From: Allotamlana fucoidanivorans | GTDB lineage: Bacteria > Bacteroidota > Bacteroidia > Flavobacteriales > Flavobacteriaceae | Reading direction: 5' to 3' | DNA: 64,000 nt | Assembly (NCBI RefSeq): GCF_006265225.1 | Contig: NZ_VDCS01000014.1 | Location: 1-64,000, forward strand | Shown here: piece after piece, positions 8,425-28,882 of the stretch | How the letters are laid out: each line of letters opens with the position of its first letter | Numbering within the stretch: position 1 is the stretch's first letter | The notes under the pieces: generated by a model | Databases searched by the model: none | Told to the model about the DNA's origin: nothing | What the model saw: only the letters and a program-made list of their open reading frames with translations | Program-made: the position numbers and the translations under genes

Positions 8425-11400
8425 TTAAAAATCAAAGTTTAATCCTAACATCCATTGAGAGGAAATCGGACCTGTATTTTTATCAAGCCCTCTTGCAGCA
8501 ATACCCCCACCTACTTCTGGATTATATCCGGAATACTTGGTAAAAGTTAATGGGTTCTGTGCTCTTACATAAAAACGTAACCTGTTGAATCCCCATCTTT
8601 CTACGGTCTTTTTAGGAATACTGTACCCTAAAGAAACCTGTCTTAATCTTAAGTACGACCCATCTTCCAACCACAAATCACTATATCCCAAGTAGTTATC
8701 ATGTCTTCTTACATCATTTTGATAAGATGGTATTGTAGAGGTGGGATTCGTTTTCTGCCATTGATACAGTAAATCTTTATGCCTTCCAAACCCGTAGGCC
8801 CAAGCGTTAAAACCATTCATAATTTCAGCACCTATTGAAGCATACCAGTTCATTGAAAAATCAAAACTTTTCCAGTTAGCATTAAAAGTATAACCTATTT
8901 CATAGTCTGGTAAACCACTTCCACTGTAAACTCTATCTTCAATATCTAAAGAGCCATCGCCATTTTGATCAATGAATCGTGTATCACCCATTTTAGCACT
9001 TCCTACAATTTGTTGATACTCTGCTAATTTTTCCTCAGTATCAATTATACCATCCGTTCTCCATAAGAAAAATGAAGCAGCCTCATGACCAACGGCTAAG
9101 GCTGTAACTCTAGATTGTTGTGGTGCTCTACCTACCAAACCAAAATCATTAGTTAACAAAAATTCTGTATTGTTATTTATTTTTGTGATTTTATTTTCAT
9201 TGGTAGAAAATGTACCATTCATTCTAAAATTGACCTTACCTATTTTACCTCTGTAGCCAGCGGTTAGTTCAAGACCACTATTAGTCATATTACCAACATT
9301 TAAAACAACTTGCGCATTATTTCCGCCTCCAGTTGATGGTGGAATAAACACAGGAAAAAGCATGTCTTCTTTATCGGCATGGTAATATTCTGCTGAGAAC
9401 GTTATTTTATTCTTTAAGAACCCTAAATCAATACCTATATTACTTTGAGTGGTTGATTCCCAACTTACTACACTATTCACATAGTTTGTTTGAGCCGCTC
9501 CTAAACTCAGTCCACCACCAGAAGTATGGTAATTTAAATCTTGAGTAATCCCTGCTTGAAAGGCATATGACTGAAATCTATCAACCCCTACAGTACCTTG
9601 ACTTAACCTTAATCTAAAATTATTCACGGTTTTCTTATTCCACCACTCTTCTTCTGAGATATTCCATGCCAATGCCACTGATGGGAAGGTTCCCCAATGA
9701 TTAAAGCTTGGGAATTTTGAGGATCCATCACGACGCACACTTGAACTCAATAAATAGCGTCCCTTGTAACCGTATTGCACTCTTCCAAGAATCCCTATGC
9801 GCGTGTCTGTATAGTCAAAACCTGAACTAACACTTTGCGTTCCTGTTGCTCCATTAAGCACTTCTATATTTGGATTAGTGGCTCCATTTCTTCTTGCCGA
9901 AAAAGCCTCACTCGTATTACTCTCAGCAGTTCCAAAAACAGTAAACGTGAATTTGTGATCATCATTTATCTCCTTCTCATAAGTTGCTCCAATTTCAGTA
10001 AGAACATTAGTAGTGAATCTGGTTCGCATATCCACATAACTATCTTCTGGCTGACTTTGTAAACGTGGTGGGTTTTGATTATTATATATTTCTTGATAAG
10101 GTCTAACAATCTTCCCAATATTATTAACCGAAGTTAAACCAAAGTTTCCTGAAAGGCTCAATCCATCAATAATCTCATAGTTCAAATTCAAGGTAGCATT
10201 TGCTCTGGTTGTTTTAAGTACATTTGTGGTACGTAGGCTCTCAATAACCCAACCTAAACGGTTAACATCATCACCTCCTTGATTTAAATCATCAAAATTA
10301 TCAATATTTATACCATTTTGAGTCGGACGATATACGATGGATTGAGACAAGAGAAAGCCTTGAGGAATATCTCTTTTATCTGTATTTAAACCAACACTCG
10401 CCTGAATTCTTAACTTGTTTTTATGATAAACGGTATTTGCTCTTGTATTGAAACGTTTATATCCAGAATTAATTTGCAAACCTTCTTGATTGAAATAACC
10501 TAAATTAACACTATAGGTAATATCTTCTGTTCCTCCAGAAACATTTAGATCATAGTTTTGAACAGGGACATTCTGATTGAAAATCAGGTCATTTATATTA
10601 GTTTCATTTTGAAATTGAAGTGGCTGTTGTTTTATTTGCAAACTTGCTTGATCATCAAACCCGTTATTTACATTTCTGTTTTGAACAATATCAGCATACG
10701 TTTGTTCTAAAGAGTTCATTAAAGGAACAGCTGCATTTCTGTGCTGAATGGCATAACTTGCGTTCAATCTTACCTGTAGCGATCCTGGTTTACCTTGTTT
10801 GGTGGTAATTAATATAACCCCTGTAGCGCCTCTAACCCCATAAACAGCAGTAGAAGCAGCATCTTTTAAAATATTAATAGTTTCAATTTCTGTTGGTGGA
10901 ATTTGCGGATCTCCATTTTGAACCACACCGTCAACTACATATAACGGTGTATTATCTCCTGAAAGTGATGTAATTCCCCTAATTAATATCTGAGCTTCAC
11001 CACCAGGTTCTGAAGATGCTACAACGTTAACCCCTGAAGCTTGCCCTTGAAGAGCTGAAGCCAAATCGGCCGTTACTACCGAAGTAATATCTTCTGCCTT
11101 TACTTGAGTAACCGCACCAGTAACTTCCTGTTTCTTTACCGATCCATACCCAATAACTACTACTTCATCAAGTTCATCTATATCTTCATCAAGAACAACA
11201 TTTACAGTATTTCCTGTAATCTTTATAGATTGCGACTGCATACCAACATAGCTGAACACCAATGTGTTTCCTATGCTCGTACTAATAGAGTAATTACCAT
11301 CAAAGTCAGTAACCGCTCCAGTGCTAGTTCCTTCTACCAAAACCGTAACACCAGGAATTGGCATGCCATCAGTTGCTCCAGTAACGGTACCACTAACAGT

Positions 11401-11502
11401 GACCGACTGCGCAAATACATTTAGGTTACATAGTAATGCTAGCATCAAAGTAAGCCCGCTTTTAACTATGCTTTTTTTAAATAATGTTTGATTAATTTTC
11501 AT
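8425..11502 (-). CDS. susC: SusC/RagA-family TonB-dependent outer-membrane transporter
   Basis: A 1025-residue SusC. It has a signal peptide (about 1-31, ending VFA-QS), a carboxypeptidase-regulatory-like beta domain (about 36-110) and the TonB-box-like DELDEVVVIGYG segment. A plug domain (about 125-235, with VYGVRGATGVILITTK) and a 22-strand barrel with the C-terminal LGLNFDF end follow. It imports oligosaccharides using TonB energy, together with the SusD encoded next. It heads an operon of four genes and is preceded by a 463-bp leader that carries three half-site repeats at 11711-11739. The full length and intact C-terminus suggest it is functional. Confidence 0.97.
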   Translation of the reverse strand: MKINQTLFKKSIVKSGLTLMLALLCNLNVFAQSVTVSGTVTGATDGMPIPGVTVLVEGTSTGAVTDFDGNYSISTSIGNTLVFSYVGMQSQSIKITGNTVNVVLDEDIDELDEVVVIGYGSVKKQEVTGAVTQVKAEDITSVVTADLASALQGQASGVNVVASSEPGGEAQILIRGITSLSGDNTPLYVVDGVVQNGDPQIPPTEIETINILKDAASTAVYGVRGATGVILITTKQGKPGSLQVRLNASYAIQHRNAAVPLMNSLEQTYADIVQNRNVNNGFDDQASLQIKQQPLQFQNETNINDLIFNQNVPVQNYDLNVSGGTEDITYSVNLGYFNQEGLQINSGYKRFNTRANTVYHKNKLRIQASVGLNTDKRDIPQGFLLSQSIVYRPTQNGINIDNFDDLNQGGDDVNRLGWVIESLRTTNVLKTTRANATLNLNYEIIDGLSLSGNFGLTSVNNIGKIVRPYQEIYNNQNPPRLQSQPEDSYVDMRTRFTTNVLTEIGATYEKEINDDHKFTFTVFGTAESNTSEAFSARRNGATNPNIEVLNGATGTQSVSSGFDYTDTRIGILGRVQYGYKGRYLLSSSVRRDGSSKFPSFNHWGTFPSVALAWNISEEEWWNKKTVNNFRLRLSQGTVGVDRFQSYAFQAGITQDLNYHTSGGGLSLGAAQTNYVNSVVSWESTTQSNIGIDLGFLKNKITFSAEYYHADKEDMLFPVFIPPSTGGGNNAQVVLNVGNMTNSGLELTAGYRGKIGKVNFRMNGTFSTNENKITKINNNTEFLLTNDFGLVGRAPQQSRVTALAVGHEAASFFLWRTDGIIDTEEKLAEYQQIVGSAKMGDTRFIDQNGDGSLDIEDRVYSGSGLPDYEIGYTFNANWKSFDFSMNWYASIGAEIMNGFNAWAYGFGRHKDLLYQWQKTNPTSTIPSYQNDVRRHDNYLGYSDLWLEDGSYLRLRQVSLGYSIPKKTVERWGFNRLRFYVRAQNPLTFTKYSGYNPEVGGGIAARGLDKNTGPISSQWMLGLNFDF

Positions 11503-11710
11503 TTAGTTAATTTGTTTTACTTAAACTATTTAGTTCTTCCTTTTACATTGAATATCAAGAATTAGAAAAAGCTTCTAGCTTGTATTCAAAAAATTGGCTT
11601 TAACGTAGTTAAGCTTAGTTTTCATTTTATATTGTTGTAGTTAATTTTATCATATCTTATGACATGACTATACAAAGAGACAACAAAACAGAAGATTTCT
11701 TTTTATGGCA

Positions 11711-11739
11711 TTTATCCTGTTCTTACCCTATTTTATCCT
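11711..11739 (-). promoter_or_regulatory. Candidate AraC-type operator: triple half-site array upstream of susC
   Basis: Plus-strand half-sites TTTATCCT (11711-11718), CTTACCCT (11722-11729) and TTTATCCT (11732-11739). The outer two are identical and lie 21 nt apart. The middle one is about one helical turn from each. In the direction of transcription they read AGGATAAA, AGGGTAAG, AGGATAAA. This is the strongest version of the motif found in seven PUL leaders. Confidence 0.6.
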
Positions 11740-11848
11740 ATATCTTAACCAAATGTTAAATTTTGTGGTTTGACATAAATATGGCATGGCAAAATAGAGC
11801 AGTAACATTAAAATTTTATGGATAGAATTATGACACAAAAGATTATTT

Positions 11849-11879
11849 GTCTACTTATTTTTTTCAAAAAAAAGTAGAC
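11849..11879 (-). repeat. Hairpin-forming inverted repeat between sulfatase and susC
   Basis: GTCTACTT (11849-11856) pairs with AAGTAGAC (11872-11879). The interior T and A runs extend the stem past one A-A mismatch. It lies after the sulfatase terminator and before the operator array. It may be a second terminator or an RNA stem; nothing else supports a function. Confidence 0.5.
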
Positions 11880-11898
11880 TATTTAGTGTTGGGTTTAA

Positions 11899-11933
11899 AA
11901 CAAACAAGGCGCCTTAACCAATTAAGACACCTT
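11899..11933 (-). terminator. Terminator of the sulfatase gene upstream of susC
   Basis: On the minus strand, AAGGTGTCTTAA pairs with TTAAGGCGCCTT around a TTGG loop (12 pairs, two of them G-T). A T-rich stretch follows. It isolates susC transcription from the sulfatase. Confidence 0.8.
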
Positions 11934-11965
11934 ACAACTTTAAACTAAATAATTATGAATATAAA

Positions 11966-13621
11966 CTATATCTCTGCCAAGTTTCCTTTCCAGCCTTTAT
12001 TAAACTGGTTAATTAACTCTTTAACTACATCTGGATAATCTTCAGCAATATTTTTTGTTTCTTTTGGATCATTTTCATGGTCAAAAAGCTCAACAAACAC
12101 AGGTTCTTTTTCAGGGTTTATATAATCTTTCCAAATAACGGCTCTGTACTTGTCTGTTCTCATACCATATCCCATTAATCTCTTTTCAAACAAATCTCTA
12201 TTCCATTTATCACCTTGTTGTTTTTTAATTTTAGCCTCAACTTCTTCAATAAGTGGGCCAAAATAGGTTTCTCGCATTCCTTGAGATAGCGGATTTGCTG
12301 CCCATTCTCTTAAAGCTGGGTTTGGAAACTGACTAAACACCGCTTTTTTCCATTTTTTTTCAGGGTTATCAAGTAAGGGCATAAAACTTTGTCCTTCTAA
12401 ATGTGATGGCAGCTCAAGACCTGCAAGCTCACAAAGGGTTGGGTACATATCTACCAATTCAACTAAGGCTTCTGAGGTTTTTCCTCGACTTCCTTTTGGC
12501 ATATCGGGTGTCCAAATCATTAAGGGAACGCGTGTAGCTATTTCATAATTTGTAGCTTTTCCCCAAATACCCATATCACCAAGATGCCAACCATGATCAC
12601 TCCAAACCATAATAATAGTATTATCTCTCACTCCAGCTTCGTCAAGCGCATTAATCATTTTACCTATTTGAGCATCTACATAAGACACACAAGCTAAATA
12701 AGCATGTTTTAGAGTTCTAGCCATGTCATCATCAATAGGTCCTTTTTTCGGAATTCCGTATCTGGCACGTAATTCAAAGGATGGATGCAAGCCCATAGCA
12801 GCTCCATTCTCTGGTCCAGACGTTTGATCTGCCAACGTGATGTTTTCTGGATTATACAAATCCCAATATTTTTTAGGCGCTAACCAATCTAAATGTGGCT
12901 TTTTCATTCCCATTCCTAAAAAGAAAGGCTTATCAGGATTTTTCTCTAGCATATCCTTAAGTGTCGCAATAGCCAACGCAGCATTGTACCCATCTTCATA
13001 AAACGTATCTGGAACATCTGCCTTTTCATAAGCAGGTCCCTTTCCTAAACCATTACGTGGCGCATTCGGCCCATATTTAGCAATCATATCAGCCTGATTT
13101 TTTCTAAACATCTCTTGATTTTCCTTTAAAGCAAAACCACCTGGTGTTTTAGACATCTCTACAGTCATTTTATCCTCTGCTGGTGTTCTACTCCAAGAAA
13201 CATCTAAATCTGCAAAAGCAGGTTTATGGAAAATTTTACCTGTATGCACGGCTTCATATCCATTTTGGATAAAATGTTGAGACAAGGTTACTATATCTGG
13301 GTTAGCTTCTCTAAAATAAGTAAAGTTTTCAATGACATTTATGGTTTCTGGTCTTGCTCCTGTCATTAAACTAGCTCTTGACGGACTGCAAATGGCTTCT
13401 TGACAATAGGCTCTATTAAACTTTAGGCCATCACTTGCCAAAGCATCTAGGTTGGGCGTTATGGCAATTTCGGAACCATAAGCACCAATTTCTGGACGTA
13501 AATCATCAATGGCTATAAATAATATGTTTGGTTTTTTGGAAACTACCTCTGTTTGCTCTTGTTTTGATTTACAACCGCTCAAAACAATGAGTAATACTAC
13601 TATGATTTTAAAAAATTTCAT
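11966..13621 (-). CDS. Formylglycine-dependent sulfatase (S1, iduronate-2-sulfatase-like), lipoprotein
   Basis: A 551-residue type I sulfatase with a lipoprotein signal ending at Cys17. The metal-binding IDD lies at residues 38-40. The maturation motif CSPSR starts at C78, the Cys converted to formylglycine. The later WSDHGWHLGD region carries the conserved metal and catalytic residues. The layout resembles iduronate-2-sulfatase-type S1 members such as S1_7, a group known from carrageenan PULs. It is clearly paralogous to the sulfatase at 21913-23565 over its whole length. It is probably periplasmic or membrane-anchored and removes sulfate esters from galactan oligosaccharides; the position specificity is unknown. 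It has its own leader with a half-site pair (13701/13722) and its own terminator. Confidence 0.93.
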   Translation of the reverse strand: MKFFKIIVVLLIVLSGCKSKQEQTEVVSKKPNILFIAIDDLRPEIGAYGSEIAITPNLDALASDGLKFNRAYCQEAICSPSRASLMTGARPETINVIENFTYFREANPDIVTLSQHFIQNGYEAVHTGKIFHKPAFADLDVSWSRTPAEDKMTVEMSKTPGGFALKENQEMFRKNQADMIAKYGPNAPRNGLGKGPAYEKADVPDTFYEDGYNAALAIATLKDMLEKNPDKPFFLGMGMKKPHLDWLAPKKYWDLYNPENITLADQTSGPENGAAMGLHPSFELRARYGIPKKGPIDDDMARTLKHAYLACVSYVDAQIGKMINALDEAGVRDNTIIMVWSDHGWHLGDMGIWGKATNYEIATRVPLMIWTPDMPKGSRGKTSEALVELVDMYPTLCELAGLELPSHLEGQSFMPLLDNPEKKWKKAVFSQFPNPALREWAANPLSQGMRETYFGPLIEEVEAKIKKQQGDKWNRDLFEKRLMGYGMRTDKYRAVIWKDYINPEKEPVFVELFDHENDPKETKNIAEDYPDVVKELINQFNKGWKGNLAEI

Positions 13622-13700
13622 AAAATATGTGTTTTCTAATTTTATTCTATAATAACCTTACCGCAAATTATAAAAATAAGGACAATACAAATTACTTTAT

Positions 13701-13729
13701 TATACCTTAAACCTCCACTAATTTACCTT
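13701..13729 (-). promoter_or_regulatory. Candidate AraC-type operator upstream of sulfatase
   Basis: Plus-strand half-sites TATACCTT (13701-13708) and TTTACCTT (13722-13729) lie 21 nt apart, 80-108 nt upstream of the ATG at 13621. The first differs by one base from the second. A further TTTACTAA begins 10 nt on, similar to the triple array at susC. This is the weakest of the seven pairs. Confidence 0.4.
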
Positions 13730-13762
13730 GTTTTACTAACCTTGTAAGTAAACCTTAAAAAA

Positions 13763-15175
13763 CTAACTTTTATACTTAAAACGTAAAAACCATAACGATA
13801 AAACTAACGCAACCAATATACCCACTAAACACGACCATTTATAAGGAAGCCTAAAACCTTCAGGAGCAACCAAAATATAGGTAATCACAACTGCTGTCAT
13901 AAATGCTGAAGGCATTAAAATAAACCAAACTGTTTTTCCTTCTTGCTTTACATAAACTGCTATAGCCCAAAGTACAACAGTAGCAAGCATTTGATTAGAC
14001 CACCCAAAGTAACGCCAAATAATAGCAAAATCTATTTGAGTTAAGCCAAATGCTATTATAAAGATTGGAATGGTAACTAAGAAACGCTTCCATATTATAG
14101 ATTGGTTAAAACCAAAAGAATCTGCAATGGTTAATCGCGCACTTCTAAAGGCAGTATCTCCCGATGTAATAGGTGCGGCCACGACACCAAAAATTGCCAA
14201 TATACCACCTATTTTCCCCAGAGTAGTATTACATATTATATTGACTACCCAAGCTGCATTGTGACCTTCTTCGGCCATAGTTTTTCCTAGTGCTTCAACA
14301 CCTCCAAAAAATGACATAGCAATAGCCGCCCAAACTAAGGCTACAATGCCTTCTGTAATCATAGCACCAAAAAAAACCTTTTTTCCTTGCAACTCATTAG
14401 AAACACATCGTGCCATTAAAGGCGATTGTGTAGAATGAAATCCTGAAATAGCACCACAGGCTATTGTGATAAAAAGTAGTGGAAAAACAGGATAGGTTTC
14501 TGGATCTGCGTGTAGATTTCTTAAATTTTGAATTGTCAATTCTGGTATGGTATATTCCTGAAAAAGCAGCGCAAAAAACAACCCTAAAGCCATGATCAAA
14601 AGAGAGAAACCAAACAGCGGATATATTTTTCCTATAAGTTTATCAATTGGAATAAGAGTGGCTAATAAATAGTACACAAAAATAACTAGAACTAAAATTG
14701 TACCACTCACACCTGTTAGCTCCTGCAGTATAGTAGCTGGTCCTTTCACAAAAACAACCCCAACTAAAATTAATAACACTACAGAGAAGATACGCATGAA
14801 GTATTTTATTCCTTTTCCAAGGTACTGCCCTACAATTTCGGGTATACTTTCACCGCCATGTCTTATAGACAACATTCCTGAAAAATAATCATGGACGGCA
14901 CCAGCAAAAATAGATCCGAAGACAATCCATAAAAAAGCTACGGGTCCCCATAGGGCTCCTGCAATGGCTCCAAAAATAGGTCCAAGACCAGCAATATTTA
15001 AAAACTGAATCAAAAAAATTTTTCCTAACGGTAATGGTACAAAATCAACACCATCCTCCTTTGATATAGCTGGTGTAACTCTGTTTGGGTCCGCATTAAA
15101 TTTGCGCTCTATATAGTTGCCATATATAAAATAGCCTAATACTAAAACCAGTATACTTGTAATAAAACTAATCAT
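13763..15175 (-). CDS. CstA-family carbon-starvation / pyruvate-type transporter (short form)
   Basis: A 470-residue polytopic membrane protein with CstA-family marks: an N-terminal GYFIYG and the stretch NIAGLGPIFGAIAGALWGP. HDYFSGMLSIRHGGESIPE and CGAISGFHSTQSPLMARC follow. It is shorter than E. coli CstA (about 700 residues), as is usual for the Bacteroidota version. Characterised relatives move pyruvate or peptides. Its ATG overlaps the stop of the preceding sodium:solute symporter by 4 nt (ATGA), so the two are translationally coupled. In a pathway that makes pyruvate from anhydrogalactose, a pyruvate-handling transporter is plausible, but the substrate is unproven. Confidence 0.88.
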   Translation of the reverse strand: MISFITSILVLVLGYFIYGNYIERKFNADPNRVTPAISKEDGVDFVPLPLGKIFLIQFLNIAGLGPIFGAIAGALWGPVAFLWIVFGSIFAGAVHDYFSGMLSIRHGGESIPEIVGQYLGKGIKYFMRIFSVVLLILVGVVFVKGPATILQELTGVSGTILVLVIFVYYLLATLIPIDKLIGKIYPLFGFSLLIMALGLFFALLFQEYTIPELTIQNLRNLHADPETYPVFPLLFITIACGAISGFHSTQSPLMARCVSNELQGKKVFFGAMITEGIVALVWAAIAMSFFGGVEALGKTMAEEGHNAAWVVNIICNTTLGKIGGILAIFGVVAAPITSGDTAFRSARLTIADSFGFNQSIIWKRFLVTIPIFIIAFGLTQIDFAIIWRYFGWSNQMLATVVLWAIAVYVKQEGKTVWFILMPSAFMTAVVITYILVAPEGFRLPYKWSCLVGILVALVLSLWFLRFKYKS

Positions 15176-16896
15176 AATTTATCTTGCTTAAGTTTTCTTT
15201 TTAACAGAAAAAAAGTTGCTACCGATAACCCAAAAAGCAGGCATGAAAAAATGAGCAATACTTTCATTTCTGTGGTATTAATGAATGCTAAAATAAGCAT
15301 CATAAATCCTATGATTGCCAACGTATACATAACCATCTTGGTAGGCAAACTAGAAGACTCTACAACCTCTAAGGCTTGAAATTTATCTTTAGATTTTTGA
15401 ACACTTATGCTTTTTGGATTGGTCTCTTTTATTGTAAATTCTAAAATAATGAGAATAATTAACGGAACTAAAATTCCAACCGTTAAATCTGCTATTCTCA
15501 TGTTACTAACTACCCATTTAGAAATTGGTTGTAATATTTCAAAACTTGATAGAAAACCATCCTGAGTCAATCCAAACTTAACCACTGCGGCCGCTAAAAA
15601 ACCTATCATTGTGGTTCCCCACACAGCTTTTATTCCTATTTTCTTTGAAAATAATCCCCAAATAGTAGGTAACACTAATGGACCTGTGAGTAATGTGGTT
15701 AAATCAATTATAAATCGCGCATACCCATATCTAGGGATAAGCAAAGCTCCTGCAATAACAATACCCCCTAATAAAATGGTGAAAATTCGGCCAACAAAAA
15801 CCAGTTGTTTTTCACTGGCGTTTTTATTAAACATTCTTTGATACACCTCTGTGGTAAAGGCGCCCGCAAATACATTGAGTTGAGATGTAGCCGCACTGGC
15901 TGTAGCCGAGGCCATTGCAGCTATCATTAATCCCATCATACCAGCAGGAAGTACTAAGTTGCAAGCCAAAATATAGGCCTGCTCTACATCTTGCCCAGGT
16001 TGAATAGTTCTATACACCAATGCAGGAAGCATCCAAAAAATAGGACTGATTAAATACATAGCACCAAAAATGTAAGCTGCCTTTTTAGCATCCTTAGGAC
16101 TTGGTACACATGTATAACGCTGTACAAATGCCCACTCGCCTCCTATTTTAAAGAAGTGAATTATAACCCACCCTGCTAAAAACCACCATGTAAAATCGGA
16201 TGCTACAGGAGATAAAAAGCCTTCGGGAGCCTTATCAAGAAAAGCACTCCACCCACCTGCTTTAGATAAAATTAAAGGAACTACAAAAATGACCGAAATA
16301 ACAAGAATTACAAACTGTAGCACGTCTGTCACTAAAACGGCCCAAAGTCCACCAGAAAAGGTGATTACAATAACAATTAAACATAAAACCACCGATGTAA
16401 ATGGCACAGAAAGTAATCCCGTTTCAGGATCAACCAATAAATGGCCTTCAGGCAATGGCATCAAAGCGCAAACAATTTTTGAAAGTGCATATATAGCCCC
16501 TCCAACCGCAAATATACCAAAGGTACCTTGAAACCATGTGTAAAATTGCACAATAGAACCACCAAAGCGCAATTGTAAAAACTCGGAAGCTGAATTTACA
16601 CCAAGCTTACGCCAATAACCTGCTAAAAAGTACCCTACCAGAAGTGCGGCAATACCATAACACATATTTATGGCTACAGCAACAAAACCATATTGATACG
16701 CTATACCTCCCCAAACAACAAATGTACCTGCTGAAAAAATTGTCATAAAGCCAGATAATCCAGATACCCACCAAGGGGATTGCCCGCCTGCTGCGAACAT
16801 ATCTTTAGAGTTTTTCATTTTACTAGCAAGAATCATTCCTGCCGTTACTACTCCTAGCATATATAGAATAATGACTACATAGTCGGCCGTTTGCAT
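15172..16896 (-). CDS. Sodium:solute symporter (SSS family), candidate sugar transporter
   Basis: A 574-residue inner-membrane protein with about 13-14 hydrophobic segments. It has the SSS-family signature in the first half (GGQSPWWVSGLSGFMTIFSAG, here split as GGQSPWWVSG and LSGFMTIFSAG). The residues ASATASAATSQLNVFAG of helix 8 are also present. SSS members in PULs typically import monosaccharides or sugar acids with sodium. The start codon lies only 12 nt downstream of a long TTAG repeat tract. The gene is coupled to cstA by a 4-nt overlap. A transported monosaccharide such as galactose or anhydrogalactose is the inferred cargo. Confidence 0.9.
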   Translation of the reverse strand: MQTADYVVIILYMLGVVTAGMILASKMKNSKDMFAAGGQSPWWVSGLSGFMTIFSAGTFVVWGGIAYQYGFVAVAINMCYGIAALLVGYFLAGYWRKLGVNSASEFLQLRFGGSIVQFYTWFQGTFGIFAVGGAIYALSKIVCALMPLPEGHLLVDPETGLLSVPFTSVVLCLIVIVITFSGGLWAVLVTDVLQFVILVISVIFVVPLILSKAGGWSAFLDKAPEGFLSPVASDFTWWFLAGWVIIHFFKIGGEWAFVQRYTCVPSPKDAKKAAYIFGAMYLISPIFWMLPALVYRTIQPGQDVEQAYILACNLVLPAGMMGLMIAAMASATASAATSQLNVFAGAFTTEVYQRMFNKNASEKQLVFVGRIFTILLGGIVIAGALLIPRYGYARFIIDLTTLLTGPLVLPTIWGLFSKKIGIKAVWGTTMIGFLAAAVVKFGLTQDGFLSSFEILQPISKWVVSNMRIADLTVGILVPLIILIILEFTIKETNPKSISVQKSKDKFQALEVVESSSLPTKMVMYTLAIIGFMMLILAFINTTEMKVLLIFSCLLFGLSVATFFLLKRKLKQDKL

Positions 16897-16908
16897 TTTA
16901 GTTTAAGT

Positions 16909-16955
<47 letters not shown>

Positions 16956-16960
16956 GCCTA

Positions 16961-18805
16961 TTAATTATAACAACGCACTTCAAAAAGCTTTACGTTTTTA
17001 GCTCCATAGGTCTCATGACATGTAATTCTAAAGGCGGTTATTTCCACTTGTTCAAAATTGAATTTTATCAATCTTTTTTGATTGTTATCTTGAGTACCAT
17101 AATCCACCCATTCCCCATCTATTTTTAACTCTAGACTTACAGACTTTAAAAGTTCGGGAGGAATTATTGTAGTATAAGCTTGATTTTCTCTGGTGTTTTT
17201 TAGCATCATGATGTTCTTTTTAACATTTGTATCGCACTTAATCTCAACAGATTTTAAGGCAATAGGGTTATGCCACTCAAAAACCACTTCAGCGTTTAAA
17301 CCATTTGATTGCCAGTGATGTGTTTCTCCTAATTCATCTCGAGGTACGCCATCAACTAGCAAGTTTACATCTCCAGACGATATAGATGATGCATAAATTT
17401 TATCAGCCGTTTTGGCCAAATCTAAAGCATCATTAGCGGGTCTTTCGGGGATGTAGGCATCATCTCTTAATAGCTGTTCTTGTAACTCCACAATATGCTG
17501 ATTGGCAATAGTTCTTGGATTTACATTCTTTTTGATACAAAGCGCAGCAGCAGTACCAACCGCTTGCCCCATAACCGCGCAAGTTCCCATAACACGGGAT
17601 GAGGATAAAGCTACATGGGTTTGACTTACATTTCTACCAGCAAAAAGCAGGTTAGTAATATTTTTAGAGTACAAGGATTTAAATGGAATTTGATAAACTT
17701 TTTCAAAATGCTCATGCCAAAAACTTGGGGGCTCAGCCAAATTTTCTATACCTCCAGGATTATGTTCATCTAAAGGCCAACCACCAAAGGCTACCGCATC
17801 TTCATGTATTTTATGATTTATTTGATCTGGTTCAGAAAGTATATAATCGCCCATGAAGCGACGAGATTCTCGTCTTCCTGGTAAAGACCCAACCCAATCT
17901 AAAACAAAAGTATCAGCTTCAGGAAACTTTCCTGAGTTTTTAACATAATCCCAAACGCCATAAGCAAAGCCCATTAATCGATGCATATCAACTTCTGCAT
18001 CAGCAATTATATCGTCATTACTACCTACTTCTACCCACCAAAATCCTTCAACAAATGGAATTATTTTTCGGTCTGGATGTGTTTTATCAGCATCAAACTT
18101 AATAGAAAATGGCGGGGCTTTATAGGGCATAGGTTTTCCCATATCTTTTGAAGATAAAAGAATTGTAGCTCCCATTTGCCATCCGTCTGGTTCATCAGGC
18201 GCATATTTTTCGTTAAACTCTTCTTTTCCTTCTCTTCCTGTTCTATAAATTGCTCCAGCAGTTGCAGCCATTAGGCCATCACCAGAACAATCAATAACCT
18301 GTTCTCCTTGAATAGTTAACAACGTTTCTGTAGATAATTGCCAGCATAAAACGGATTCTATGGTAGAATCAACCGTTATGGCACGAACACATTGTGTATT
18401 TAAAATCAAGGTGATATTGGGCTCCCGTGTAACAAAATCATACAATACATGATCCCAAACAGTAAATGAATGTTGTTCGTTATAAAAACGGTTCAGTAAT
18501 AAAATTTCTTCTAAAATACCTGTTTCTCGTTCAGGCAAGCCGCTCTTAAGCTTGGTAACACCATGTACTATAACACGTATTTCACTAGAGGCGTTGCCGC
18601 CTAATACAGGACGGTCTTGAACTAAAACCACACGAGATCCATTTCTAGCCGCCGCAACAGCTGCACAAATTCCTGCCATTCCTCCTCCTATTACAACAAC
18701 CTGCGTGATTATTGCTTTATCTCTTTTGGGCGTGCGCTTTTCGTCACTTCCCATTTGTATCCAATTGTCAGAAGAACGATCGGTAAGATCAACTATGTGT
18801 TTCAT
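16961..18805 (-). CDS. FAD-dependent oxidoreductase, cytoplasmic paralog
   Basis: The 614-residue protein has an N-terminal dinucleotide-binding motif (VVVIGGGMAG, residues 37-45) followed by the FAD-family stretch with QDRPVLGGNASSEIRV. This places it in the FAD_oxidored group of PUL-associated flavoenzymes. The central part carries DCSGDG and GRNVSQTHVA, which contact FAD in this family. The last about 110 residues (after about 500) form a second, discoidin-like beta domain (IKCDTNVKKNIMM, ending KNVKLFEVRCY). There is no signal peptide. It is a close full-length paralog of the Tat-exported protein at 19967-21889, with one small gene between them. The substrate is unknown; sugar oxidation or oxidative deglycosylation are possibilities. 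Confidence 0.85.
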   Translation of the reverse strand: MKHIVDLTDRSSDNWIQMGSDEKRTPKRDKAIITQVVVIGGGMAGICAAVAAARNGSRVVLVQDRPVLGGNASSEIRVIVHGVTKLKSGLPERETGILEEILLLNRFYNEQHSFTVWDHVLYDFVTREPNITLILNTQCVRAITVDSTIESVLCWQLSTETLLTIQGEQVIDCSGDGLMAATAGAIYRTGREGKEEFNEKYAPDEPDGWQMGATILLSSKDMGKPMPYKAPPFSIKFDADKTHPDRKIIPFVEGFWWVEVGSNDDIIADAEVDMHRLMGFAYGVWDYVKNSGKFPEADTFVLDWVGSLPGRRESRRFMGDYILSEPDQINHKIHEDAVAFGGWPLDEHNPGGIENLAEPPSFWHEHFEKVYQIPFKSLYSKNITNLLFAGRNVSQTHVALSSSRVMGTCAVMGQAVGTAAALCIKKNVNPRTIANQHIVELQEQLLRDDAYIPERPANDALDLAKTADKIYASSISSGDVNLLVDGVPRDELGETHHWQSNGLNAEVVFEWHNPIALKSVEIKCDTNVKKNIMMLKNTRENQAYTTIIPPELLKSVSLELKIDGEWVDYGTQDNNQKRLIKFNFEQVEITAFRITCHETYGAKNVKLFEVRCYN

Positions 18806-18836
18806 ATAAATTAAGTTGTGTTAGTTTAAAAAAAGA

Positions 18837-19964
18837 TTACAAACGACTTTGATATTTCTCATAAAATTTATCTACCCTTGCTTGCTGTGTTGGGGTTAGT
18901 GATTTGGTTTTTAAAACCCAATACGCCTTTCTCGCTTTTAAAAAATCTTCATCTAAGAGTTGTATTGCTGTTTCAATAACAGACGCTGAATTTTTATTTT
19001 TAAGTTCCAATAAATCTAATAGTGCTGCCACTTCTTGATAAGAATCTACTTGTGTTAATTGCTTACCAAAATTATCTAAGTATGCTTTTTCAATACTATA
19101 GTCGGTATCTACTAAAGATTTTATTGCGGCTAACCTATGTATTTTACCCCCTTCAAAAAATAAACGATTTACAGCGTAGAAATAATTTTCTTGAAGAGCC
19201 TTATCTACATATTTGAATGCTGAATTTGTCAAAGAAGGGGTTTTTAAAACTTTTTTTATTACCGTATTTAGAACTTCTTTTGAATAGATGTTTCTATTGA
19301 TTAATTCTTTTAAAGCGATATGAAAATAGGTGTTATTCTCATTTAGAATAAACATTTTCAACTGTTCTAAAGAAACCGATTTCCCTGTCTGATTTTTTAT
19401 TATAGACACCACTTCTCCATTAGCCCAATGCCATAAAGTAAAACAGGTTAAGGCCGCACCACGTACCGTATCTTTGTCGTCAAGTTCTAACGCTGTTGCA
19501 CCAGAAAGGGCATCAACTCCTTCTTCACCATGTTCATCTGGAGCAGTTAAAATGTCATCATAGTAAACATCTTTAAAAGGCGAATTGTCATCGGCCAAAA
19601 TATAGTTTAGTTTTTCATAATCTTGAGGTTCAAATAGATCTGCTTCATACTTTTCTAAGGTTTTTCCAGCCTCCAGCTCATACCTTTCATATACTCCAAT
19701 ATTATTCCAAAACAGCTTAACGGGTATTATTTTACACACCTCTTCTAAACAAATAACCGAAAACACATTCATGCTATACCCAACAGGTAATCCCGCCTCA
19801 TTTTGCCTTTCAGTTAAAATAGCTCTAACAGAATCTTCTTCTCCTGGGTGTTTAATAACTACCTCATGATTAATAGTCTTAAATGTATTTTGATGACTCT
19901 TCATATTGCTTAACAATAAAAAAGAGAGTATTAACCACCCGTATGTTTTTAAAGATTTAAGCAT
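18837..19964 (-). CDS. Exported FMN-bind-like protein with DALSGAT motif, between two FAD oxidoreductases
   Basis: From the ATG at 19964 the protein has about 375 residues; a TTG at 19979 inside the upstream gene is less likely. It has a hydrophobic N-terminal segment (about 6-20), so it is exported or membrane-anchored. Residues about 45-190 resemble an FMN-bind domain. They end in DALSGAT (151-157), which matches the D-x-x-S-G-A-T pattern whose Thr receives FMN covalently from ApbE in NqrC/RnfG-type proteins. Residues 190-375 look like alpha-helical repeats. Two Cys lie at CLEEVC (about 72-77). It starts 2 nt after the upstream Tat FAD oxidoreductase stop and precedes the cytoplasmic paralog. 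An electron-transfer partner is inferred; the family call is tentative. Confidence 0.6.
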   Translation of the reverse strand: MLKSLKTYGWLILSFLLLSNMKSHQNTFKTINHEVVIKHPGEEDSVRAILTERQNEAGLPVGYSMNVFSVICLEEVCKIIPVKLFWNNIGVYERYELEAGKTLEKYEADLFEPQDYEKLNYILADDNSPFKDVYYDDILTAPDEHGEEGVDALSGATALELDDKDTVRGAALTCFTLWHWANGEVVSIIKNQTGKSVSLEQLKMFILNENNTYFHIALKELINRNIYSKEVLNTVIKKVLKTPSLTNSAFKYVDKALQENYFYAVNRLFFEGGKIHRLAAIKSLVDTDYSIEKAYLDNFGKQLTQVDSYQEVAALLDLLELKNKNSASVIETAIQLLDEDFLKARKAYWVLKTKSLTPTQQARVDKFYEKYQSRL

Positions 19965-19966
19965 AG

Positions 19967-21889
19967 TTAAGCATAACAACGTACTTCAAAAAGTTTTACG
20001 TTTTTTGCACCGTAAGTAGCAGTCATGTTTATTTTGATTGCAGATACTTTTGTAGAATTAAAACTAAACTTAATAAGCCGTGTTTTGTTTTCAGAAATTT
20101 CTCCAAGATTAACCCAAGCACCATCAACACGTCCTTGAAGTTGTAACGATTTTAACATCTCTTTTGGCACACTATTGCCATATAAATCGTCATTTTTACT
20201 ATCTTTTCGCATCATAATGTTTCGCTTCACATTAGTATCGCATTTTAATTCAACCTTTGTTAAATTAACAGGGGTTTCCCATTCTAATTGAACATGTGCC
20301 CCCAACCCTTCTGATTGCCAATGATTAATAGTACTATCAATATCTCTAGACATACCATTGGTTAAATTTTTAACATCACCTGTCGTGGTAGTTGACGCAA
20401 ATATGAGGCTCGCCTGTCTTGCTAAATCCAACGGGTCTTTCGCAGGTCTATTGGGTATAAAAGCATCGTCTCTTAGTAACTGCTCTTGTAATGCATTGAT
20501 ATGTTTCTGCGCTACTTCACGAGGTAAAATACGGTTCTTATTGCAAATACTTGCGGCAGTACCCACGGCTTGCCCTTGAAGCGCACAGGTTGCCATGATT
20601 CTTGATGATGATAATGCAATGTGCGTTTGACTCACATTTCTACCAGCAAACATTAAATTTGAAATGTTCTTAGAGTACAAACTTCTAAATGGGAACTCAT
20701 AAATCTTTTCAAAATGATAGTGAAAATAACTAGGAGGTTCTGAAATATTTTCAATACCTCCTGGATTGTGTTCATCTAAAGACCAACCTCCAAAAGCCAC
20801 GGCATCCTCAAAATGTTTATGCCCTGTCATATCTTTTTCAGACATGATATAATCTCCAATAAATCTGCGCGATTCACGACGTGCAGGCAATGAACCTACC
20901 CAATCTAATGCAAGATTTTCCGCTTCTGGAAAATGACCTGAATTTTTTATATAATCCCAAACACCATGCAAATATCCCATAAGCTTATGTCGATTTTTTT
21001 CTGCATCGGCAATGATATCATCATCACTTCCTATTTCAATCCACCAGATACCATCTTGAAATCCTGCAAATTTTCGTCGAGGGCTAGCGCCTTCATGCGA
21101 ATACTTAATGGCATATGATGGCGGAGAATATTTCATAGGTCTTCCCATATCTTTAGAGGACATTAACAAGGTAGCTCCCATTTGCCATCCATCGGGTTCA
21201 TCTGGCGCATAAGTTTCATTAAATTCAGCTTTCCCTTCACGACCTGTTCTGTATTCTGCACCAGCCGTAGCTGCCAACAAGCCATCCCCTGAACAATCAA
21301 TAAAAATGGGCGCATTAATAGTAATTAATTTTTCAGTTGTAGCCTGCCAGCATAATGCCGATTTAATAGTATTCCCCTCCATTACGGCCTCAATAGCTTG
21401 TGTATTGAGCATTAAAGTTAAGTTTGGTTCGCGTACCACAAAATCATACATAACATGATCAAATACAGGAAACGATTCTTGTTCATTTTCAAATCGATTA
21501 TGCAACAGTATTTCTTCTATTATACCTGTTTCACGTTCTGCTTTGCCCTTAATATTATTTACACCATTTAAATGCACCCGCATTTCACTAGACGCATTTC
21601 CACCCAAAACAGGTCTATCTTGTACTAAAACTGTTTTAGAGCCGTTTCTGGCTGCTGCTACAGCCGCACAAATTCCTGCTGCGCCTCCACCTATAACAGC
21701 CACATCAAATCCCACCGTTTCTTTTCTATTAGGCATGCCTGATTTTCCAGTTCCTAAGTGATACCATTTATCTTTATCCTTGTCATAAGCCATACTTTGT
21801 GAACTTCCACAAGATGTGGTTACCATTGGTATAACTCCAGCAGCAATTGCTGCTTTTGATCCTTTTTTAAAAAACTCTCTTCTTTTCAT
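19967..21889 (-). CDS. FAD-dependent oxidoreductase, Tat-exported lipoprotein paralog
   Basis: This 640-residue protein begins MKRREFFKKG, a twin-arginine signal, and continues to a lipobox-like TTSC (Cys27). It is therefore predicted to be folded with FAD in the cytoplasm and exported as a lipoprotein. The dinucleotide motif VAVIGGGAAG lies at residues 63-72, followed by the same PVLGGNASSE stretch, DCSGDG and GRNVSQTHIA as in its paralog at 16961-18805. A C-terminal discoidin-like domain (after about 525) ends KNVKLFEVRCYA. Gene order is sulfatase, this gene, FMN-bind-like gene, cytoplasmic paralog. It may oxidise sugar residues outside the cytoplasm and pass electrons to the neighbour. The reaction is unknown. 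Confidence 0.85.
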   Translation of the reverse strand: MKRREFFKKGSKAAIAAGVIPMVTTSCGSSQSMAYDKDKDKWYHLGTGKSGMPNRKETVGFDVAVIGGGAAGICAAVAAARNGSKTVLVQDRPVLGGNASSEMRVHLNGVNNIKGKAERETGIIEEILLHNRFENEQESFPVFDHVMYDFVVREPNLTLMLNTQAIEAVMEGNTIKSALCWQATTEKLITINAPIFIDCSGDGLLAATAGAEYRTGREGKAEFNETYAPDEPDGWQMGATLLMSSKDMGRPMKYSPPSYAIKYSHEGASPRRKFAGFQDGIWWIEIGSDDDIIADAEKNRHKLMGYLHGVWDYIKNSGHFPEAENLALDWVGSLPARRESRRFIGDYIMSEKDMTGHKHFEDAVAFGGWSLDEHNPGGIENISEPPSYFHYHFEKIYEFPFRSLYSKNISNLMFAGRNVSQTHIALSSSRIMATCALQGQAVGTAASICNKNRILPREVAQKHINALQEQLLRDDAFIPNRPAKDPLDLARQASLIFASTTTTGDVKNLTNGMSRDIDSTINHWQSEGLGAHVQLEWETPVNLTKVELKCDTNVKRNIMMRKDSKNDDLYGNSVPKEMLKSLQLQGRVDGAWVNLGEISENKTRLIKFSFNSTKVSAIKINMTATYGAKNVKLFEVRCYA

Positions 21890-21912: not shown

Positions 21913-23565
21913 TTATTGTACTATTTCAGGTGTGTGTCCTTTCCAGCCTTTGTTAAATTCAACCAGTAATTTATTTACTAATTCTGGTTCTTCATCGGCA
22001 ATATTTTTAGACTCGTGAGGGTCTTTCAAATGATTATACAGTTCTAAATAAACGGGAGCTTTATCTGGATGTATTCTATCTTTCCATACTATAAACCTAT
22101 AGTTCTCTGTACGCATGGCATAGCCCATTAAGTCATTTTCAAAAAGATTTCTATCCCATTTTTTGCCTTGCTGTGCTATAATGCGTTCTTCCACTTCCTC
22201 AAGTAATGGTCCGAAGTACGTTTCTCGCATTGCAGGTCTTATAGGAAAAGCTCCCCACTCCCTTAATGCCGGTGATGGAAATTGACTAAACACAGCATTT
22301 TTCCATGCTATTTCTGGATTTTCAATTAATGCTTTAAAGCTTGTTCCTTCCACATGATCTGGTATTTCTAAACCTGTTAAATCAGCAAGTGTTGGATACA
22401 TATCTATTAACTCTACTAAAGCATTTGTGGCTTTACCTTGCGTGTTTTTTGGCATATTGGGTATCCAGATCATCATAGGCACACGTGTAGCAATTTCATA
22501 ATTTGTGGCTTTACCCCAAATGCCCATATCGCCTAAATGCCAACCATGATCACTCCACAAAATAATGATAGTATTATCTCTTACACCTGCCTCATCCAAT
22601 GCTTCAATCATTTTACCTATTTGAGCATCAACATAGCTAACACAAGCCAAATAAGCATGCTTTAATGTAATAGCCAGTTCATGATCTATGGGGCCTTTTT
22701 TAGGAATACCACTCCGTACGCGCAACTCAAAAGAAGGATGTAAGCCCATTTGAGAACCATTTAATGGCATGGTATCTTGTGGTGTGATTTTTATATGAGA
22801 CCTATCATATAAATCCCAATACTTTTTTGGAGCTACCCAATTAAGGTGAGGCTTATTAAAACCCAACCCCAAAAAGAAAGGTTTATCATTTTTTGCCACT
22901 AACTCTTTCAAGGTTGCAATAGCCAGCTCGGTGTTATATCCATCACTATAGGTATTATCAGGAACGTCAGCACATTCATAAGCTTGCCCCATAGCTAATC
23001 CATATTTAGCCACATCACCATATTTTTTAATCATGGCTTTTCGCGTTTCATTCCGCTCCTTAATGTTTTTTTCTAAAGCAAACCCCACAGGTTCTTTAAT
23101 ACCTCTAAGGGTCATGCTATCAACAGCAGGTAATCGGCTCCAAGATTTTTCATCATCTAAATCACCGTGATGAAAAATTTTTCCCATATAAACCGTTTCA
23201 TATCCATTATTTTTAAAATGCTGTGGCAGTGTTATTACATCTGGGTTAACCTCTCTAAACTTTATATAGTTATGAAATACACCACTGGATTCTGGACGAA
23301 TTCCAGTTAACAAACTTGCTCTCGAAGGGCCACAAATAGCTTGTTGGCAGTAGGCACGATTAAACTGTAACCCCTGACTTGCCAATTTATCCATATTAGG
23401 AGACATTGCTATCTCTGAACCATAAGACCCCAATTCAGGGCGCAAATCATCTATGCCAATGAATAAAATATTTGGTTGCTTCGATTGTTGAATTATGGGC
23501 TCTTCAAAATTTTTACAGCTAAAACATAAGACAAAAACAATACATATAACTTGGGTAGTGCTCAT
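21913..23565 (-). CDS. Formylglycine-dependent sulfatase (S1, iduronate-2-sulfatase-like), lipoprotein
   Basis: Start chosen at the ATG 23565, because the frame upstream begins with a TTG (23604) and this ATG gives a normal lipoprotein signal ending in CFSC. It encodes about 550 residues with IDD near the N-terminus and the maturation motif CGPSR (Cys about 78 of the mature frame). WSDHGWHLGD and the C-terminal HPDKAPVYLELYNH region follow. It is paralogous to the sulfatase at 11966-13621 along its whole length, although the maturation motif differs (CGPSR against CSPSR). It heads the group sulfatase, Tat FAD oxidoreductase, FMN-bind-like protein and cytoplasmic FAD oxidoreductase. A half-site pair (23630/23651) lies 65-93 nt upstream. 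The sulfate position it removes is unknown. Confidence 0.93.
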   Translation of the reverse strand: MSTTQVICIVFVLCFSCKNFEEPIIQQSKQPNILFIGIDDLRPELGSYGSEIAMSPNMDKLASQGLQFNRAYCQQAICGPSRASLLTGIRPESSGVFHNYIKFREVNPDVITLPQHFKNNGYETVYMGKIFHHGDLDDEKSWSRLPAVDSMTLRGIKEPVGFALEKNIKERNETRKAMIKKYGDVAKYGLAMGQAYECADVPDNTYSDGYNTELAIATLKELVAKNDKPFFLGLGFNKPHLNWVAPKKYWDLYDRSHIKITPQDTMPLNGSQMGLHPSFELRVRSGIPKKGPIDHELAITLKHAYLACVSYVDAQIGKMIEALDEAGVRDNTIIILWSDHGWHLGDMGIWGKATNYEIATRVPMMIWIPNMPKNTQGKATNALVELIDMYPTLADLTGLEIPDHVEGTSFKALIENPEIAWKNAVFSQFPSPALREWGAFPIRPAMRETYFGPLLEEVEERIIAQQGKKWDRNLFENDLMGYAMRTENYRFIVWKDRIHPDKAPVYLELYNHLKDPHESKNIADEEPELVNKLLVEFNKGWKGHTPEIVQ

Positions 23566-23629
23566 TAGATAAATGGATTCAATATTGACTTTAAAATTCG
23601 TCAATAACCAGAAATTTCACATGCTCACA

Positions 23630-27004: not shown

Positions 27005-28882
27005 TTAATTAGACTTCCCTACGTTATAGGTGGTATTTAATTTTACGATATCTAATGATTGCTTTTCACCATTACTCCATAACACTTCGGCCTCGTCAAT
27101 TTTAGTAGATGTGCCAAGACCTATATGAAGATTGGTGTTTAAAGGATGTGAAAAATAGGACGATGTAGCACCAACCACACGTTTATAGATATTACCGCCC
27201 GCTTTTAACGTTAATATAGCACCAATAGGAGTTACTTTTCCTGAAGGCGAGTTGCCTACGTTTACCACCACATAATTATTATCTGATTTTAAATGGTTTG
27301 TAAACAAGTGCCAGCGGCCACGTTCGTTAGCATAAATAATATCTAAATCGCCATCCTTGTCGTAATCAAACGCATCAGCTCCCATACCCGTTGAACCGAC
27401 TTCTTCTCTAACAATACCATGACCTTCAATTCTTTTGAATTGCTTTCCTTCATCATTGAGATATAAGAATTGTTCAATTTGTGACGCAGAATGACCGTAA
27501 CGCACAATGTATAGATCAGACCAGCCATCATTATTAAAATCACCCACTGCAGAACTGGTGGTTTGCTCAGAAATATCAATACCCAGTTTTGCAGTTACAT
27601 CCACAAAAGTACCGTTTTGATTTTCCAATAATTTAGCGGGTAAATTCTTCAACTCAATTGTTTCTGGTTTTTCTACCACGTTATGTATCACTCCTGATGT
27701 TGGCGCATTTGTAAAACCTTCTATACGCCAATAATCATTTCCCAAATAACCTATATACAATCCTTTTTTAGAGGTATCTTCTGGCCAACCTTCGGCTTCT
27801 TTTTGAGTTAAAGTAAAATCTTGATGCCCATGCTTGTCTAATTTACGCTTAAACAATTTCTTTTTGGCTCCAATAAACACATCAAAATGAGGAAAGGCCA
27901 TTTGTAGGTTTTCAATTTTAAAATCACCCTTAATTTTTATACTATCGTGTTTAAACGGTTCACGACGTGCAAAGAAGTAAAATCTTTTGTTCTCGGTATC
28001 ATAATCACTTTCAGCATCAAAAGCATGTTTTGATCGTGTTAAAAACAAATCGAAATCAGCATCATTATCAAAATCGATTTCTGAAACACTCGTGGTCAAA
28101 TTAGTGTTTGTTAAATCGCCTAGTACTGTTTCGGTCACATCAGTAAATTTGTTATTAGCTTCTCCCTGAACAGCTATAACTTTACTCCCTCCATAGAAAA
28201 TCATATCGGTGATGTTATCGTTATTGAAATCAACATACGTCATACGGTCATTAAAACGATCAGCATAAGGCAAAAATTTAGAAAATTTAAATTCCTGCTC
28301 TTCATCTTTTAAATATAAAAAATGGGCTTTATCGTTTTGATTTTTGGGAGGAAACGCTGTTAGTAGCAATCCTAAATTACCATCATTATTGCCATCAATA
28401 AACTTAACCGCACGCCCTCGGCTTGCTTTAAAATGCTTGAATTCTTTCTCTTCTGAAACACTTCTATCTAAATTAACAGTATAGGCTCGTAGTTTTCTAG
28501 GGTTTTTACCATCACCGCCGCCTGGTTGAACCAAAACTTCTAACAGACCGTCGCCATTATAATCACCAATAGCTATACCATGGGTATCCCCAAAAATAAA
28601 CGGTTCTCCCCGCTCAAAAACACCTTTATTGTTCCAAAACAATTCAACACGTCTTGAATGTTCAGTTAGCAGCATATCCATATAACCATCTTGATCTAAA
28701 TCTGCAATAACAGCGTTATCAAATTTTCTTCGTGAACGCTCCTCGCCTGGAAAAATAGCCTTGTCTTCTGAAAAACTTAATTCAGGCATATTATTATCAT
28801 CATTTTGAGCACTTATAAAACTTGGTAGCATCAACATAGCCAAAAGTGCCAAGGTTAAATAACATATGTTATTCTTATTCAT
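27005..28882 (-). CDS. Secreted FG-GAP/VCBS-repeat protein with C-terminal ASPIC/UnbV domain
   Basis: A 625-residue protein with a signal peptide (about 1-25, ending SFISA). It has repeated Asp-rich calcium-binding loops of the FG-GAP/VCBS type (for example DLDQDGYMD, DYNGDGLLE, DFDNDADFD, DFNNDGWSD and DYDKDGDLD). These predict an integrin-like beta-propeller. The last about 80 residues form the ASPIC/UnbV domain (IGAILTLKAGG, then HIGLGTSTKIDEAEVLWSNG). It is paralogous to the protein at 30700-32598, and an MFS sugar porter gene lies between the two. No catalytic motif is seen. A role in polysaccharide binding or surface assembly is possible but unproven. Confidence 0.85.
   Translation of the reverse strand: MNKNNICYLTLALLAMLMLPSFISAQNDDNNMPELSFSEDKAIFPGEERSRRKFDNAVIADLDQDGYMDMLLTEHSRRVELFWNNKGVFERGEPFIFGDTHGIAIGDYNGDGLLEVLVQPGGGDGKNPRKLRAYTVNLDRSVSEEKEFKHFKASRGRAVKFIDGNNDGNLGLLLTAFPPKNQNDKAHFLYLKDEEQEFKFSKFLPYADRFNDRMTYVDFNNDNITDMIFYGGSKVIAVQGEANNKFTDVTETVLGDLTNTNLTTSVSEIDFDNDADFDLFLTRSKHAFDAESDYDTENKRFYFFARREPFKHDSIKIKGDFKIENLQMAFPHFDVFIGAKKKLFKRKLDKHGHQDFTLTQKEAEGWPEDTSKKGLYIGYLGNDYWRIEGFTNAPTSGVIHNVVEKPETIELKNLPAKLLENQNGTFVDVTAKLGIDISEQTTSSAVGDFNNDGWSDLYIVRYGHSASQIEQFLYLNDEGKQFKRIEGHGIVREEVGSTGMGADAFDYDKDGDLDIIYANERGRWHLFTNHLKSDNNYVVVNVGNSPSGKVTPIGAILTLKAGGNIYKRVVGATSSYFSHPLNTNLHIGLGTSTKIDEAEVLWSNGEKQSLDIVKLNTTYNVGKSN

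Follow-up and report, generated by a model that had tools for sequence, protein, structure and literature searches.

The stretch of Allotamlana fucoidanivorans DNA that was analyzed (64,000 nucleotides of contig NZ_VDCS01000014.1; here, the window) holds a carrageenan-type polysaccharide utilization locus (PUL), with genes for GH16 and GH127 glycoside hydrolases, several sulfatases, a sugar permease, SusC/SusD, an aldehyde dehydrogenase, and an MR_MLE cycloisomerase. Three minus-strand open reading frames within it, which an initial annotation had described as a flavoprotein triad, were all confirmed: an exported flavin adenine dinucleotide (FAD)-dependent oxidoreductase of 640 amino acids (19967..21889), a middle protein that is a probable flavinylated electron carrier (18837..19979), and a signal-less, cytoplasmic paralogue of the exported enzyme with 614 amino acids (16961..18805). 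Comparison with related loci indicated that the 640-amino-acid enzyme and the carrier together make up the real unit, an exported module of two genes, and that the cytoplasmic FAD enzyme belongs to a separate second pair with a sodium/solute symporter (SSS).

The 640-amino-acid protein matches PF12831 (FAD_oxidored) over the entire profile (E = 1.9e-89; positions 1 to 416 of 416), as does the 614-amino-acid protein (E about 1e-84 to 9.6e-84). The two are 63% identical, in agreement with their earlier description as closely related. In the alignment of relatives, the GxGxxG Rossmann motif and many more columns are invariant. The N terminus of the 640-amino-acid protein (MKRREFFKKGSKAAIAAGVIPMVTTSC) is of the twin-arginine translocation (Tat) type, with MKRREFFKKG followed by a hydrophobic stretch; the RR motif is kept in its orthologues (85% and 81% identity), and TatC is encoded in the genome. 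Thus, the Tat part of the twin-arginine lipoprotein signal that had been proposed was borne out, but the lipobox is weak, and the protein is only a possible lipoprotein. The extra C-terminal domain, said to be discoidin-like and shared by both enzymes, did not match PF00754; the sole match was to DUF7402, in one of the two proteins and below the cut-off (E = 0.0023).

Matches of these FAD proteins to PF00890 were limited to the first 38 positions. A profile search of solved structures found no full-length PF12831 relative, which means that known active sites give no guide to the chemistry; the closest structures were flavocytochrome c fumarate reductases, over the FAD-binding fold only. Exported PF12831 proteins beside the carrier have three architectures: a Tat signal with an extra C-terminal domain, a Sec signal with an N-terminal domain, and a short Tat form. 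One Flavivirga locus (L025) has tandem exported paralogues (10508-12454 and 12690-14612) upstream of a single carrier gene.

Translated from its TTG codon, the middle protein has 380 amino acids; an ATG at 19964, which sits 3 bases past the stop codon of the upstream gene, gives 375 and is the likelier start. The N terminus is hydrophobic (helix 2-24 in the model, a signal or anchor helix), and relatives of the protein carry clear signal peptides, consistent with an extracytoplasmic location. The motif DALSGAT, the predicted site of covalent flavin mononucleotide (FMN) attachment, is encoded at 19494..19514 on the minus strand (D156-A-L-S-G-A-T162 in the 380-residue numbering; the threonine is Thr157 counted from the ATG). 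The initial annotation of an exported protein with a D-x-x-S-G-A-T motif was therefore correct. Among 105 relatives, the aspartate is conserved in 104, the glycine in 103, and the threonine in all 105, with serine, threonine, or alanine at the serine position, so that the family form is D-x-x-[STA]-G-A-T. The pattern used to scan for the family left out the SGAT motif, and its conservation is thus not a matter of chance. The NqrC proteins of Flavobacteriaceae show the same DA[IL][SA]GAT alternation, and NqrC is a textbook target of ApbE.

A second conserved feature is a C-x4-C pair (Cys77 and Cys82; 19734..19751, minus strand; cysteine in 103/105 and 104/105 relatives) at the turn of a beta-hairpin (formed by strands 65-78 and 81-92 of the modeled structure), possibly a disulfide. 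A third cysteine is frequent in the helix after DALSGAT among the relatives. The middle protein was found in 21 of 201 Flavobacteriaceae genomes, and the 80 carrier loci kept from a scan of the collection come from Bacteroidota, Planctomycetes, Kiritimatiellae, Lentisphaerae, and Verrucomicrobia. The protein belongs to a real cross-phylum family. A sequence search of the PDB returned no relative.

The full-length model of the middle protein (predicted local distance difference test score, 89.7) has a beta-rich N-terminal domain and a C-terminal helix array, for which the fold search returned armadillo/HEAT-like proteins. These swamped the results when the full-length model was used as a query, and the N-terminal domain was therefore modeled alone, from 67 relatives. 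Its three best matches among 350,542 chains were NqrC (twice) and RnfG, at E values of 0.5 to 0.8 and template modeling scores of about 0.4, which are weak, and further RnfG chains appeared lower in the ranking. The N-terminal domains of 19 of the 67 relatives also weakly match PF04205 (FMN_bind; best E, 0.00065), the dominant subthreshold Pfam match, with 6 for the next family. When the carrier family was compared with an NqrC alignment by hhalign, a probability of 80% (E = 1.4e-5) was obtained over 38 columns around the motif, compared to 0.2% for an unrelated control profile. These results suggest that the N-terminal domain of the carrier is likely a divergent FMN_bind domain.

The direct neighbor of the carrier gene is a PF12831 gene in 91 of 103 carrier loci, in the order FAD gene-carrier in marine genomes and carrier-FAD gene in soil genomes. 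In ten soil loci from Runella/Spirosoma-type and Chitinophaga genomes (L112, L114, L115, L116, L118, L121, L123, L127, L128, and L129), apbE lies right after the FAD gene on the same strand, two genes downstream of the carrier. Chance placement of apbE in these ten loci is very unlikely because carrier genomes of 5 to 9 Mb have 1 to 6 copies, but these loci are relatives of one another and could go back to as few as one or two independent events. Together, motif conservation, cross-phylum coupling, and apbE adjacency in relatives strongly support the idea, raised in the initial annotation, of a dedicated flavin carrier for the exported FAD enzyme. It had also suggested a search of the genome for apbE and NQR or RNF genes; in the window genome the sole apbE is about 5 kb from nqrC. 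The mere presence of apbE was dropped as proof of flavinylation, since apbE is common in the order.

Co-occurrence in other loci thus holds for the FAD gene and the carrier, but not for the three genes together. The 614-amino-acid enzyme has no hidden signal, as had been claimed, because its open frame runs only about 5 codons further upstream (619 codons). Its gene is followed by one for an SSS sodium/solute symporter (PF00474; 15172..16896, minus strand), and its orthologues in two other loci (L025 and L094) also adjoin an SSS gene. With export called by a simple rule of hydropathy and RR motif, and in the sample selected by carrier, exported PF12831 genes were adjacent to the carrier in 89 cases versus 2 that were not, and signal-less genes in 2 versus 8. 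A separate sample of 30 loci was selected by FAD enzyme (20 exported, 10 signal-less). Here an SSS gene stood beside 10/10 signal-less genes (window 15172-18805, L209-L216, L227, and L228; 614 or about 760 amino acids) and 0/20 exported ones, and the carrier beside 15/20 exported genes and 1/10 signal-less genes, that one being the window itself. Five of the 201 surveyed Flavobacteriaceae genomes have signal-less enzymes only (G017, G019, G095, G116, and G122), and none has a carrier. By parsimony, location switched at least 4 times in the PF12831 tree, although one of these switches, in L074, could reflect a wrongly assigned start codon; the gene concerned (L074:8136-10016) is adjacent to a carrier and apparently lacks a signal, and it may alternatively be a genuine exception. 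Thus, the carrier follows the exported enzyme, as expected for removal or delivery of electrons outside the cytoplasm. The triad was rejected as a fixed unit: the cytoplasmic gene is rare beside the pair and goes with SSS, and the arrangement in the window is a local combination of two pairs.

The glycan context of the pair varies. Nearby genes encode lambda-carrageenases (10 loci), GH110 (14), GH42-like proteins (22), GH16 (7), and GH127 (5), and in soil loci the pair stands beside SusCD with GH2 and GH88-like genes. A pathway specific to carrageenan or agar is not supported by this distribution. Anhydrogalactose was rejected as a general substrate. Lambda-carrageenan contains no anhydrogalactose, and because the pair also occurs in lambda-carrageenan loci, as well as in soil loci, this sugar is not the common denominator. 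Our guess for the common target is a hydroxyl of a galactose-type sugar or of sugars more generally. Six Flavobacteriaceae loci with lambda-carrageenase or GH110 genes and an embedded carrier-FAD pair (L027, L028, L081, L086, L093, and L101) are candidates for annotation as lambda-carrageenan PULs that include a redox module.

On these sequence-based observations (protein families, motif conservation, gene coupling, apbE linkage in relatives, and segregation by location), the exported FAD enzyme and the middle protein are proposed to form a two-component extracytoplasmic redox module. Tat would export the enzyme already folded and loaded with FAD, and its most likely reaction would be oxidation of a hydroxyl group on a PUL-derived sugar or oligosaccharide. 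Electrons would pass from FAD to FMN attached by ApbE to Thr162 of the middle protein, which very probably carries covalently bound flavin, and onward to the respiratory chain via a partner encoded elsewhere. Docking of the FAD enzyme is probably the role of the helical repeats at the C terminus of the carrier, and uptake of the oxidized product may occur through the CstA-like protein or the SSS symporter. The 614-amino-acid paralogue and SSS would be a second, cytoplasmic edition for which the carrier is not needed. We consider it fairly probable, as a whole, that the exported enzyme and an ApbE-flavinylated carrier oxidize PUL sugars. More tentatively, and with rather less confidence, we suggest a cross-phylum extracytoplasmic pathway in which PF12831 enzymes oxidize glycan sugars, a new family of ApbE substrates (divergent FMN_bind plus HEAT repeats) carries the electrons, sugars enter the cell already oxidized, and signal-less enzymes with SSS perform the same chemistry inside.

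Several points weigh against this proposal. No FMN_bind model, or any other Pfam or NCBIfam model, significantly matched the middle protein, the ETPGLG motif of NqrC is absent from the carrier, the DALSGAT loop falls in a low-confidence part of the full model, and the individual fold matches of the modeled N-terminal domain are weak (E, 0.5 to 0.8). There is no apbE inside the window cluster, and because apbE is common in the order (108/148 genomes), its presence in 40/40 carrier genomes tested is weak evidence. No membrane electron partner was found, and in the Flavobacteriaceae sample four of the exported PF12831 genes lack a carrier gene both next to them and one gene away. By analogy, the known flavinylated FAD enzymes (fumarate and urocanate reductases) would point to a reductase.

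The last point leads to the alternative that survives best, in which electrons flow in the opposite direction, from the quinone pool via the flavinylated carrier to the exported FAD enzyme, which would reduce a C=C or keto group derived from the glycan. Most FAD enzymes known to contain an FMN_bind domain act as extracytosolic reductases (PMC8238504), and the nearest solved structures, although only over the FAD-binding fold, are fumarate reductases. However, the enzymes match PF12831 rather than PF00890 along their full length, the carrageenan loci examined show no lyase able to make unsaturated sugars, and the loci are glycan catabolic operons with sulfatases and glycosidases in largely aerobic hosts, where the expected need is for an electron donor. 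Flavinylated carriers have also been proposed for extracytosolic oxidases besides reductases (PMC8238504). It seems unlikely that the enzyme works as a reductase. Even less likely is that the flavinylated carrier mainly serves several cell-envelope enzymes as electron acceptor or donor, with PF12831 as one client: there are exported PF12831 genes without an adjacent carrier in genomes that have a carrier elsewhere (G002 and G181), and a few carriers have no FAD neighbor, but the FAD gene adjoins the carrier in the great majority of loci, and for several of the FAD-less carriers the contig is truncated or the adjacent FAD gene is disrupted. A role outside redox chemistry for the middle protein, as an accessory or scaffold (a chaperone or a substrate-binding protein) in which DALSGAT is structural, would suit its large helical-repeat domain and the lack of a significant FMN_bind match, but is very improbable given a threonine that is invariant across phyla in a loop predicted to be flexible, the ten loci with adjacent apbE, and FMN_bind as the top weak match.

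The sulfatase gene upstream of the exported FAD gene (21913..23604, minus strand; PF00884, E = 4e-48) is the same neighbor in many of the relatives' loci. The order of transcription is sulfatase, 640-amino-acid FAD enzyme, middle protein, 614-amino-acid FAD enzyme, SSS, and a short CstA-like transporter (PF02554; 13763..15175, minus strand); a scan for promoters and terminators gave signals close to those of shuffled sequences. Of the 103 carrier loci, 22 have a CstA-like gene no more than three genes away from the carrier gene, and often the gene directly after the carrier encodes a short CstA-like protein of about 470 amino acids (L026, L032, L036, L038-L042, L050, and L057). This protein might import the product or serve as a membrane partner. 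In L038 a gene for a DUF7133, cytochrome c, and HEAT protein (15390-17651) lies two genes upstream of the FAD-carrier pair, and its product may act there as an electron acceptor. The GH16 protein of the window is related to kappa-carrageenase (241 bits, under the NCBIfam cut-off of 350). Two FG-GAP/UnbV-ASPIC repeat proteins are also encoded inside the PUL (27005-28882 and 30700-32598).

The carrier resembles the ApbE-flavinylated FMN_bind proteins NqrC and RnfG (PF04205) in being exported, in the D-x-x-[STA]-G-A-T motif before a helix, in linkage to apbE in some genomes, and in remote profile and fold similarity. It differs in scoring below the Pfam cut-off, in lacking ETPGLG, in its invariant C-x4-C and extra C-terminal HEAT-like domain, and in its partner, a PF12831 enzyme rather than an NQR or RNF subunit. 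As in flavinylated FrdA/UrdA (PF00890 plus FMN_bind), an extracytosolic FAD enzyme is predicted to be served by covalent FMN, but the enzyme is of the PF12831 family, the carrier is a separate gene, the setting is glycan utilization, and the reaction is probably oxidative. Flavinylated NapH-like systems with the alcohol oxidase ExaA (PMC8238504) are similar in that a flavin carrier receives the electrons of an extracytosolic oxidase; there, however, the carrier is NapH-like, which the present one is not, and the enzyme here is a flavoprotein of a different class.

The window also holds the sulfatases, GH127, major facilitator superfamily permease, aldehyde dehydrogenase, and cycloisomerase expected from the Zobellia carrageenan pathway (DagA and DauA-D; PMC5698469). 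The FAD enzyme-carrier pair is no part of that Dag/Dau pathway, in which anhydrogalactose is oxidized in the cytoplasm with nicotinamide adenine dinucleotide (PMC5698469), and it is thus an addition to that system. An uncharacterized "fumarate reductase/succinate dehydrogenase" listed in some PULs (PMC5698469) may be this kind of FAD enzyme. No paper on PF12831 or flavinylation in polysaccharide loci was found in the literature searched, the coverage of which is incomplete, and within it the gene pair is apparently undescribed so far.

These results suggest that in many bacteria glycan fragments are oxidized, or less likely reduced, outside the cytoplasm, with the electrons passed on by flavin. 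If so, flavin-based extracytosolic electron transfer would be tied to polysaccharide use, a family that current profiles miss would be added to the substrates of ApbE, and the PF12831 enzymes of polysaccharide loci would gain a testable function, for which Runella, Spirosoma, and Chitinophaga, with adjoining genes for carrier, enzyme, and ApbE, offer an experimental system at hand.

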